A stretch of 44,782 bases of DNA from Clostridia bacterium (GTDB taxonomy: Bacteria > Bacillota > Clostridia > Christensenellales > Aristaeellaceae), in contig JAFQQU010000328.1 of assembly GCA_017410445.1 (NCBI GenBank), positions 1 to 44,782 on the forward strand, written 5' to 3'. Numbering within the stretch: the first letter of the stretch is position 1; each line of letters starts with the position of its first letter. The notes under the pieces are model-generated. The model was given only the letters and a program-made list of their open reading frames with translations. It did not search any database and was not told the DNA's origin. Below are positions 19,058 through 22,163 of the stretch, one piece after another. The position numbers were made by a program, and so were the translations under genes.

Positions 19058-19294
19058 ATGGAAATCAAGAGCATCCTCATCAAGGACACCACCCGCGAGG
19101 AGCGGGAACAGATCGTCGCCGAGTCCATCGGCAATATCGAATCGGCCTGCGACGGCTGCGCGCCCGGTCTGGTCGAGATGTATCAGGAATACATCGAGGG
19201 CCGCAAGGAACTGCGCCAGATCAACATGGAGTTCAACGCCCGCTATGTCTCCGGCGCGGAAGGACCCAAGCGCGGCGGCTGCATGATGGGCTGA
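19058..19294 (+). CDS. Small conserved-looking Cys protein of unknown function (78 residues)
   Basis: The protein starts MEIKSILIKDTTREEREQIV and holds the pair ACDGC (Cys31, Cys34), the segment EMYQEYIEGRKELRQINMEF, and a C-terminal GGCMMG (Cys75). It resembles a small family I have seen in Clostridia, sometimes mislabelled as a PurH fragment; the true function is unknown. Three cysteines could bind a metal. It has its own good promoter and a GGAG ribosome site, and a bidirectional terminator follows, so it is a real monocistronic gene. Confidence 0.7.
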   Translation: MEIKSILIKDTTREEREQIVAESIGNIESACDGCAPGLVEMYQEYIEGRKELRQINMEFNARYVSGAEGPKRGGCMMG

Positions 19295-19364: not shown

Positions 19365-20240
19365 TTATTCCTTGATTCCCGCGACCCGCTTAAGCTCCTC
19401 CAGCGGCAGCGCCTCAACGAGGAAGCAGTCGCCGTCGTAGCGTTCGCATCTGGATGCGTCCACCCGGTCGAGGAAGGCGTCGTAGTCCATCAGGGCGAAC
19501 AGCTTCTCCTCTTCGCTGTCCCAGAACCGGATTTCATAGGTATCGCAGACCAGCGGAACGCCAGTATCGGTATCGACGAAGCCGAAGGGCACCTGCGGAA
19601 TGCGCGGCAGGATGGTCGGCGTATCGGTCGGAAGCACGAAGCTGCCGATGATCTTTCCGCTGCGCTCGTAATACTGCGCCATAGCGTAGTACGCGTCCAC
19701 CATCTGCCGGTCATGGAGCCACGGGCCGAACTTTTCCGGATTGCGCAGAAACTCCCGCGCCTCCTCCTTGCCGACCGCCAGCTGCCAGACCGCCGAGGGC
19801 ATGGTCATGCTGCCGTCCTTCTCGCCCATGAAGACCCGCTCGGCCATCTCGATAATCATCCGGTCGTTGGTCTCCTGCACGCCCTCAAGTCCGGCCATGA
19901 AGGTATTAAGATCGGCCTTCTCTCCGCCCTCTTCAATGCCTGCATTCCAGAATTTTGCAATCCGCTCAACCGCTTCGTAAAAATCCCTGATTTCATCATT
20001 GGCGGAGGGCAGCGGCAGGCGCATTTCGACCTTGCGCTTCTCCCCTTCCTTCCATTCGACGCTGAAGCCGCGGCCGATGTGGTCCGGATGCCAGACGATG
20101 ATATCCCGCTCGCCCGTTTCGCCCGGAATGGTGCGCAGCCCGTCAAACGCGCCGTAAACCAGCTCCTCGCCCACAATCACCTCAAGCGGCAGAACTTTTT
20201 TCTTTGCCGCCGTCTGGCGGATAGTAATATCGATGCCCAT
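19365..20240 (-). CDS. DUF4299-like protein
   Basis: 291 residues, no signal peptide or membrane helix. The pattern MGIDITIRQ...KKVLPLEVIVGEELVYGAFDG, HPDHIGRGFSVEW, VEMRLPLPSANDEIRDFY, and a C-terminal DYDAFLDRV fits DUF4299, a family of unknown role found in Firmicutes. The match is by memory and not certain. The ATG at 20240 comes 2 bp after the stop of an XRE repressor (TAA GC ATG), so the two are translated from one message and the repressor probably controls this gene. Base composition is GC-rich like the host, unlike the XRE gene. Confidence 0.6.
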   Translation of the reverse strand: MGIDITIRQTAAKKKVLPLEVIVGEELVYGAFDGLRTIPGETGERDIIVWHPDHIGRGFSVEWKEGEKRKVEMRLPLPSANDEIRDFYEAVERIAKFWNAGIEEGGEKADLNTFMAGLEGVQETNDRMIIEMAERVFMGEKDGSMTMPSAVWQLAVGKEEAREFLRNPEKFGPWLHDRQMVDAYYAMAQYYERSGKIIGSFVLPTDTPTILPRIPQVPFGFVDTDTGVPLVCDTYEIRFWDSEEEKLFALMDYDAFLDRVDASRCERYDGDCFLVEALPLEELKRVAGIKE

Positions 20241-20242
20241 GC

Positions 20243-20467
20243 TTATGCTTCTCCTTTTCTTATGAAGTATTCTTCTCTGCACAGCAAATAGTCTGTCGAT
20301 ACATTCAGCACATCAGCCATGCGCACCAGCATCTTAAGACTCGGTTCTCTTGTCCCTTGCTCATAGCATTGGTACGTTCTTAATACTACGCCGATTGAAT
20401 CAGCCATTGTCTGCTGAGTCATTTGTCTGTTGATCCGTATCTCTCTAAGTCGCCTGCAAAAGCACAT
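20243..20467 (-). CDS. XRE-family HTH repressor
   Basis: 74 residues, almost entirely one Cro/C1-type helix-turn-helix: LREIRINRQMTQQTMADSIG, VVLRTYQCYEQGTREPSLKM, LVRMADVLNVSTDYLL. The ATG at 20467 has GGAGGG 6 nt upstream; an ATG at 20485 would lie before the ribosome site. It is read away from a Cys-rich micro-gene, across an intergenic region with two 17-bp operators, and is followed directly by the DUF4299 gene. It very likely represses both promoters. The DNA is richer in A/T than the neighbours, suggesting transfer. Confidence 0.88.
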   Translation of the reverse strand: MCFCRRLREIRINRQMTQQTMADSIGVVLRTYQCYEQGTREPSLKMLVRMADVLNVSTDYLLCREEYFIRKGEA

Positions 20468-20484
20468 AAATGACCCTCCAAGCA

Positions 20485-20513
20485 TTGACTACGTGCAAAT
20501 TGTACGCTATAAT
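20485..20513 (+). promoter_or_regulatory. promoter of the Cys-rich micro-gene
   Basis: TTGACT (20485-20490), 17-bp spacer, TATAAT (20508-20513). The whole spacer is operator 1. Confidence 0.85.
20491..20507. promoter_or_regulatory. operator 1 of the XRE repressor
   Basis: ACGTGCAAATTGTACGC, an imperfect copy of operator 2 (ACGTRCA-N3-TGTACGY). It fills exactly the spacer between the -35 and -10 of the plus promoter, so a bound repressor would block polymerase. Confidence 0.75.
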
Positions 20514-20527
20514 ACAAACGTCAACAA
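20499..20527 (-). promoter_or_regulatory. probable promoter of the XRE-DUF4299 operon
   Basis: On the minus strand, TTGTTG (20527-20522), 17 bp, TACAAT (20504-20499). The -10 lies inside operator 1 and the -35 touches operator 2. Confidence 0.6.
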
Positions 20528-20543
20528 CGTACATTTTGTACGT
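20527..20543. promoter_or_regulatory. operator 2 of the XRE repressor
   Basis: Perfect inverted repeat ACGTACA-TTT-TGTACGT (17 bp). Its centre is 36 bp from that of operator 1. It sits between the plus promoter and the ribosome site of the micro-gene. Confidence 0.8.
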
Positions 20544-20562
20544 AAGTCAGGAGAATCAGAAA

Positions 20563-20757
20563 ATGTATACAAAGAAAGCCGCCATTAACAATCCGAACAG
20601 ATGCCTTAATTGTATCCACTATCACCAGCACTATGTCAAAATATGCAGCGCGCCGGAGCGTTACAGCAAGTGCTTCTGCGGGCACTGCACAGCCAGAAAT
20701 GCTAAATCTGTCAGAGAAGACCGAACATGCGATGATTTCCGGCGAAAAACCGAATAA
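20563..20757 (+). CDS. Cys-rich micro-protein of 64 residues, unknown function
   Basis: The sequence holds seven cysteines (residues 14, 17, 28, 37, 39, 42, 56) and His19/21/23/41 in patterns such as RCLNCIHYHQHY and KCFCGHC, so it may bind zinc or an iron-sulfur cluster. AGGAG lies 8 nt before the ATG at 20563. The gene has a consensus promoter whose spacer is an operator for the divergent XRE repressor. A/T-rich compared with the surroundings. I do not recognise the family; small Cys proteins of this style occur on mobile elements. Confidence 0.7.
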   Translation: MYTKKAAINNPNRCLNCIHYHQHYVKICSAPERYSKCFCGHCTARNAKSVREDRTCDDFRRKTE

Positions 20758-20830: not shown

Positions 20831-22060
20831 CTATCTCTGAACCTCCTCCATCGCGATTTCCGCCCATCTCCACAGGCGGGCAGGATCGCGGCGGATGGTG
20901 CTGATGTCCTTGAGGATGAATTCAAGGCTGCGGTTATGCCGCCTGGCCGCGTCCATGGTTGCGCGCAGGTCGCGGCGGACAGCCTCCTCATCGAAGGAAT
21001 CGGTCGCAAGGAAGGCCGGATTGGGCTTGGCGCTCATGACCTTCCCCTCGGGCAGCGCTTCGGCGAAATGGTCCCGGTCGCTCCACGGGCTGCACGAAAT
21101 CTTGCGCACCTTCGGAAGCGCCGCCAGCACGTCCAACCGGTCGTCCAGCCGCTCGCAGCAGCCATAATAGATCGCGCCGAAATGCGGAAACACGCGCTTC
21201 ATGTATTCCACCTCAAACTCGCGCGTGATCTCCGGAGATACCGAGCTGAACAGCTGCGCAAGCCCGAACGCCCAGCCCTGTCCGGTCGTGCCGAATCCGC
21301 TTTCTCCCTCCGGCAGGTCGCTTAAGAAATTGTGAGAGCAGTGGGTCAGCGTGCCGGAGACGTCGTAAATCCCCTGCCGGTTGGCCGATTCGATCTGATG
21401 AAGAAGGCCTCTCGTCAGCTTCTCCATGATCGCGTGCATGAACTCCGGCCTATCCATCAGGTCGATATAGCAGCTCTCTACGCCGCGCCAGAAGCTGATC
21501 TTGTCCCACACGCCCAGATGCATCGATACGCCGCGCATCCGGTACGGAATGATCCCGCCGAAGATCACGTCCGCCTCCTCGCGGATCCGCTTCAGCGCCT
21601 CCCGGTCCAGCGTATACTCCGGCAGGCGGATCTGCGCCAGCGCTTCTTCGCTGTCCAGCACATCGTAAAGCCGGTGGCTGTAGGCGGTTGCGTTCCTGTC
21701 CGGCGCGATGACGTCTTCCTTGACCTCGAGGCCCCAGCCGCTGTCAGATACGGGCATGGGCAGCTGAATATAGGGCGTAAGCACCATGTCGACCGGCATA
21801 TGCCGCCAGCAATAGAGCTTCATCTTCAGCTCTTCCTCGACGCGGCGCCAGTATGCGTCCTCCGCCCGTCCGCTGAGCGCGCCGTCCGTATTGATCTCCT
21901 GCCAGCAGATCTGATCGATCAGCACCATGGGACGCGCCGGACGGCACTCGTTGTTGGCGGTCCACAGCCTGCGCTTTTCATCATGCACCGGCAGCGAAGC
22001 GGCCTCGGCATACTGCATGGCCAGCTCTCTCAGGATGGAAATGTCATTCGGCTTCAGCAT
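20831..22060 (-). CDS. URO-D-superfamily protein (uroporphyrinogen decarboxylase-like)
   Basis: 409 residues. Late motif HFGAIYYGCCERLDDRLD recalls the zinc/cofactor-binding HxC...C region of MtaA/CmuC-type methyltransferases in the URO-D fold, rather than true HemE, whose N-terminal RQAGR motif is missing. Members near sugar genes in Clostridia are common but uncharacterised. The ATG at 22060 follows GGGAGG; longer readings start in the intergenic hairpin region. It lies downstream of an FGGY kinase on the same strand with a 111-bp gap. Enzymatic role unknown; methyl transfer to a corrinoid protein is one option, but no corrinoid protein is nearby. Confidence 0.7.
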   Translation of the reverse strand: MLKPNDISILRELAMQYAEAASLPVHDEKRRLWTANNECRPARPMVLIDQICWQEINTDGALSGRAEDAYWRRVEEELKMKLYCWRHMPVDMVLTPYIQLPMPVSDSGWGLEVKEDVIAPDRNATAYSHRLYDVLDSEEALAQIRLPEYTLDREALKRIREEADVIFGGIIPYRMRGVSMHLGVWDKISFWRGVESCYIDLMDRPEFMHAIMEKLTRGLLHQIESANRQGIYDVSGTLTHCSHNFLSDLPEGESGFGTTGQGWAFGLAQLFSSVSPEITREFEVEYMKRVFPHFGAIYYGCCERLDDRLDVLAALPKVRKISCSPWSDRDHFAEALPEGKVMSAKPNPAFLATDSFDEEAVRRDLRATMDAARRHNRSLEFILKDISTIRRDPARLWRWAEIAMEEVQR

Positions 22061-22129
22061 ATTTTTTGTCCTCCCGCATGTTCTTTCCGCCGCGCGTGCG
22101 GCGCAGCGCCGGGGTATGAAGATCATTGA

Positions 22130-22163
22130 GCCCTCCCAGAGACGCATCCGTCCCGGGGAGGGC
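22130..22163. repeat. hairpin between the kinase and the URO-D-like gene
   Basis: Arms GCCCTCCC (22130-22137) and GGGAGGGC (22156-22163). The T-rich tail (GTTTCTCTTT) is on the plus side, where no gene ends. On the minus strand there is no T tract, so it may act as an RNA-processing or stability element. Confidence 0.5.

Follow-up and report, generated by a model that had tools for sequence, protein, structure and literature searches.

A phage-type two-operator XRE switch with a divergent cysteine-rich gene in an uncultured Clostridia bacterium

The right operator of the lambda CI/Cro switch serves overlapping, opposed promoters through graded operators, one of which abuts the −35 element of the weak promoter. 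In the CI-MOR switches of TP901-1 and phi13, a repressor acts on several palindromic sites between divergent lytic and lysogenic promoters, an operator overlaps the lytic promoter, and the first lytic gene encodes a small modulator or antirepressor (PMC8516035). XRE regulators are also found in Streptomyces paired with DUF397, a small protein of unknown function, and these pairs were once proposed to be toxin-antitoxin systems (PMC10364602, PMC6262351).

Here we describe an XRE gene and a divergent cysteine-rich (Cys-rich) gene in a contig of an uncultured Clostridia bacterium; the whole stretch of DNA that was analysed, 44,782 bp, is referred to as the window. Like the lambda right operator, the locus has overlapping, opposed promoters and graded sites, one abutting the −35 element of the weaker, candidate promoter, but it has two sites instead of three, and its Cro position contains no further HTH repressor. 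With CI-MOR it shares divergent promoters, palindromic sites, an operator lying on a promoter and a small first gene. It differs from CI-MOR in having only two sites, one of them (O1) in the promoter spacer, in the length of its repressor (only 74 aa), and in its lytic-side protein: MOR is described as a small repressor (PMC8516035), whereas the Cys-rich protein gave no HTH match in the libraries searched. On the lytic side, where lambda CI/Cro and TP901-1 CI-MOR have a small HTH regulator, none was detected at the window, and because of this the switch is not a member of the CI-MOR group despite its like logic. The RstR repressors of CTX-type filamentous phages (NF041951) are likewise short, single-domain HTH proteins, and NF041951 is the best NCBIfam match of the window XRE (E 2.7e-20), with a score, 72.7 bits, that falls under the curated cut-off of 80. 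As in the XRE-DUF397 pairs, the XRE protein has a small partner of unknown function; DUF397, however, is encoded downstream of XRE, whereas the window has a Cys-rich partner in divergent orientation and gave no match to DUF397.

Operators, promoters and neighbouring genes at the locus

The features of the locus are as follows.
19365-20240, minus strand: DUF4299 gene (PF14132, 53.1 bits against a gathering cut-off of 31), beginning 2 bp past the XRE stop codon
20243-20467, minus strand: XRE gene, encoding a 74-aa HTH repressor of the XRE/Cro-CI type that lacks an S24 domain (HTH_3, 1e-12)
20485-20490, plus strand: −35 hexamer of the Cys-rich promoter, TTGACT
20491-20507: operator O1, ACGTGCA-AAT-TGTACGC, an imperfect palindrome that has the same promoter position in viral loci
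20499-20527, minus strand: candidate XRE promoter TTGTTG-17-TACAAT, weak, a consensus match only
20508-20513, plus strand: −10 hexamer of the Cys-rich promoter, TATAAT
20527-20543: operator O2, ACGTACA-TTT-TGTACGT, a perfect 17-bp inverted repeat
20563-20757, plus strand: Cys-rich gene (P0004) encoding a 64-aa protein with seven Cys, under the switched promoter, with an SD-like AGGAG upstream

An earlier note on this DNA had named the three genes as DUF4299, an XRE gene and a seven-Cys 64-aa protein, and had described a perfect palindrome with an imperfect copy 36 bp away that forms a promoter spacer; all of this can be read in the sequence. The TTGACT/TATAAT promoter agrees with the consensus at 11 of 12 positions and is the sole promoter-like match in the intergenic region. 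Its 17-bp spacer is exactly O1 (offset 0), and O2 lies downstream of O1, between the promoter and the start codon of the Cys-rich gene, at a centre-to-centre distance of 36 bp. The candidate XRE promoter (−35, TTGTTG, 20522-20527; −10, TACAAT, 20499-20504) shares the operator DNA, its −10 falling within O1 and its −35 touching O2, and the XRE gene has the Shine-Dalgarno sequence GGAGGG. Taken by itself the O1 palindrome is not significant (p 0.35 against dinucleotide shuffles), and the occurrence of a second O1 copy 36 bp away is (16 of 19 matches; 0 of 200 shuffles). An exact search for ACGTRCA-N3-TGTACGY finds O1 and O2 and nothing else in the window, with no further copy across the 3.42-Mb assembly (331 contigs).

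The start of DUF4299 lies so close to the XRE stop codon that co-transcription is likely, and XRE and DUF4299 might accordingly form a functional operon whose operators set DUF4299 expression, the Cys-rich ORF being a bystander or spurious. We give this explanation very little credence, as the pairing with DUF4299 is seen at this locus only, the strong promoter is directed toward the Cys-rich gene, and the Cys-rich ORF is one member of a conserved family. Five DUF4299 homologues from elsewhere score above the cut-off (L021-L023, L104, L105) and none of them has an adjacent XRE gene, DUF4299 is absent from the other XRE/Cys-rich pairs examined, and base composition shifts at the XRE end, from 42-45% GC in the XRE-Cys region to about 60% around it, DUF4299 included. 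The link to DUF4299, to which the earlier note had described the switch as joined, is therefore positional and incidental, and DUF4299 is not a conserved partner. No close DUF4299 relatives were found among the sampled members of the bacterial family. At its C-terminus the XRE protein is shorter than its phage relatives, and this, together with the 2-bp gap, points to a probable recombination scar at the XRE/DUF4299 junction, by which DUF4299 would have come under the repressor promoter; DUF4299 would then be a neighbouring gene that came to follow the repressor directly.

The locus does not lie in a phage genome: its neighbours are chromosomal (DUF2927, FGGY kinase, MatE, Ppx-GppA and TrkH), and no phage structural or integration gene was recognised among the window ORFs tested. 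No clear empty site emerged when flank synteny was compared by way of the gene at 20831-22147. A 78-aa protein with Cys near its middle and near its end (CDGC ... GGCMMG) and no Pfam match is encoded at 19058-19294.

Viral loci with the same switch geometry

A scan of IMG/VR viral contigs with the window XRE retrieved three loci (L106-L108), and a second scan with an XRE alignment as query retrieved 72, of which 46 (L109-L154) were analysed; the non-redundant set comprises 38 promoters, from 37 viral loci and the window. The promoter spacer is 17 bp in 34 of the 38 loci (window included), the centre of O1 coincides exactly with that of the spacer in 27, and a second copy of O1 stands at 35-40 bp in 37 (36 of the 37 viral loci), with p<=0.05 in 36. 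O2 is the better palindrome of the two in 28 of the 38 loci and the reverse holds in 4. The window has the layout of the L106-L154 subfamily in each respect: divergent XRE, operator in the spacer, 11/12 promoter, offset 0 and 36 bp. The window, L107 and L108 have near-identical promoters (window, TTGACT-ACGTGCAAATTGTACGC-TATAAT; L107, TTGACT-ACGCACAAAGTGTACGC-TAAAAT; L108, TTGACT-ATGTGCAAATTGTACGT-TATAAT), the divergent promoters and operators of L106-L108 all closely resemble those of the window, and the recognition segment LRTYQCYE of the window XRE is common to the XRE proteins of these three phage loci. XRE and operator sequences covary significantly; the recognition helix does so to the same degree (r 0.55) as the rest of the protein (r 0.56), and the covariation is therefore no proof of contact. 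No −35 element of the XRE promoter is conserved across loci.

The divergent gene is a member of the Cys-rich family in 16 of the 37 viral loci by profile (L127 weakly), including L107 (E 3e-15), and in L108 a Cys-rich gene of the L043 type starts before the contig ends. ORF6N is the first divergent gene in L113 and L139, and by resemblance in L148, and the remaining viral slots hold other small proteins. Genes for Bro-N, Rha and an S24 repressor lie nearby in L106, L108 and L107. L107 and L108 also have a third operator-like palindrome, upstream of O1 near the XRE ribosome-binding site, which is missing from the window. One viral contig, IMGVR_UViG_3300006217_001606, contains two such XRE switches with differing operators (L116 and L140).

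The layout at the window is thus not a product of chance. The phage-like arrangement that the earlier note had proposed from this one locus recurs, in its promoter/operator geometry and XRE subfamily, in IMG/VR contigs, often with a Cys-rich relative as the first divergent gene. Because both the geometry and the Cys-rich family recur in viral loci, a phage-like reading of layout and likely ancestry is well supported.

The cysteine-rich family and its chromosomal pairs

Used as a single query, the window Cys-rich protein found no match in 59 relatives, phage records or viral contigs, and one weak relative (L029) in 391 genomes of the class. The family was assembled by profile searches begun from L029, its relatives being reached by the family profile only. 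A 27-row alignment gives the motif C-x2-C-x4-QHY-...-GHC-...-C, in which C-x2-C, HY, GHC and the last C (four Cys and two His) are the invariants of the family. The window protein keeps every invariant alignment position (C14, C17, Q22, H23, Y24, G40, H41, C42 and C56) and matches the profile, of which it is itself one seed row, with E 4e-15. The family has no convincing match in Pfam or PHROGs and no sequence match in PDB, and two members tested had none in NCBIfam. The structure predicted for the window protein is modest (pLDDT 69), with a hairpin after the CxxC, and has no PDB fold match. In two loci (L036 1282-1992, minus strand, and L054 3552-4277, plus strand) the Cys-rich domain is fused between two XRE-type HTH regions, the C-terminal one seen by Pfam and the N-terminal one by the XRE profile (E 2e-4); structure prediction for the fusion is of low confidence apart from the C-terminal HTH. 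The same genomes encode a paralogue of the fusion (L041/L066) that is interrupted by an in-frame stop ahead of the last HTH. Several chromosomal Cys-rich proteins (L063-L065, L067, L069, L070 and L089) are extended at the C-terminus by a conserved segment of the type FVSKEYLSKELLQYxLNLELLPEI.

Outside the window, a divergent XRE gene lies about 100 bp from the Cys-rich gene in 15 family loci, near-duplicates such as L064/L065 included. Two operators at fixed spacing are present in 13 of the 15. In 12 (11 by palindrome test and L085 by sequence reading) one palindrome occupies the promoter spacer, mostly shifted by 2 bp, and a second copy stands 25 bp upstream; L043 has the window-type geometry, at 37 bp, and the two-operator geometry could not be fitted to L038 and L081. 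Of 14 family members that lack a divergent XRE, not one has this geometry. Operator sequences vary by locus (ATATCGG, TTACTCA, TTAACCTG, AGAGTT, ACCGG, TGACACA and others), and the common feature is therefore geometry, not sequence. In L081 the HTH neighbour of the Cys-rich gene is of a different type, and the promoter regions of L080 and L081 carry AGGAGTAA repeats in place of palindromes. L071 (3890-4000) has a Cys-rich gene with a strong upstream palindrome, TTTGACACAAATTGTGTCAAA, and no adjacent XRE; its repressor may be encoded elsewhere.

Members of the Oscillospiraceae and their relatives have stand-alone pairs, as does one genome of the family to which the window belongs (L055, L058, L063-L070 and L089), and the pair neighbours examined are varied chromosomal genes. 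Such pairs would suit the explanation that the locus is a simple chromosomal autoregulated pair, in which XRE represses its own and the divergent promoter and from which phages took copies out of their hosts. We think this unlikely, because the chromosomal pairs have the 25-bp geometry and an XRE of another clade, whereas the window has 36 bp and an XRE of the viral subfamily; the split places the window on the viral side with support of 99/94, and no supported grouping fixes its position within that side.

The earlier note had also raised a defence, stress or toxin-control role. A pair of small genes that includes one for an autoregulating HTH protein would fit a toxin-antitoxin or abortive-infection module, with the Cys-rich protein or DUF4299 as the toxic component and XRE as antitoxin or repressor, and DUF4299, which has no known function, is noted in a T6SS-linked variable region of Campylobacter jejuni (PMC8285248). 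Such a module seems highly improbable here, given that no toxin or defence family was matched, that many Cys-rich genes have no XRE partner and that DUF4299 does not travel with XRE. PADLOC returned generic HTH hits for XRE only from the window proteins, with no system-specific match, and the suggestion of the note finds no support.

A proposed mechanism and its implications

Taken together, our findings indicate that the locus is a real, non-random switch of phage type to which DUF4299 is incidental. We consider it likely to be the early-control core (lysis-lysogeny type) of a temperate phage, stranded on the chromosome of an uncultured member of the Bacillota, with the Cys-rich product as a likely modulator of the repressor. 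The short XRE protein would be that repressor, with O2 as its strong site and O1 as its weaker one. Bound to O1, between the −35 and −10 hexamers, it would exclude RNA polymerase and shut the strong plus-strand promoter; bound to O2, at about +7 to +23, just past the start point, it would further block the Cys-rich promoter. From O2, which would be centred at about −43 of the XRE promoter, it may also stimulate XRE synthesis, which O1 may limit. The placing of the XRE −10 and −35 elements in and against the operators may explain both the imperfection of O1 and the possible help from O2, which would be similar to the help that CI gives to PRM of lambda.

The Cys-rich product sits where other such phages have ORF6N or another early protein. 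This slot, the fusion to HTH domains and the four Cys and two His invariant in the family suggest that it is most likely a metal-binding modulator, an antirepressor or co-regulator, of XRE. The two proteins need not cooperate, given that over half of the viral slots hold another gene and that some Cys-rich genes stand apart from any XRE gene. It is possible, and we propose it tentatively, that XRE repressors are modulated in response to metal or redox state by the Cys-rich proteins, which would then form a new family of modulators common to the phage switches of Bacillota and the chromosomal pairs. Literature searches found no report of a divergent XRE/Cys-rich switch.

The logic of the switch is already familiar, and its new elements are the Cys-rich family and the rule of geometry: one operator lies exactly in the promoter spacer, and the distance to a second is 35-40 bp in phage loci or 25 bp in chromosomal pairs. 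As this rule holds over many operator sequences, it offers a simple means of assigning operators to the XRE repressors of gut Bacillota. The undescribed Cys/His protein family seems to be a recurrent early gene of gut-Bacillota phages and is found fused to HTH domains. If its members do modulate XRE repressors in response to metal or redox state, that state would be read directly by a control region of the lysis-lysogeny type.
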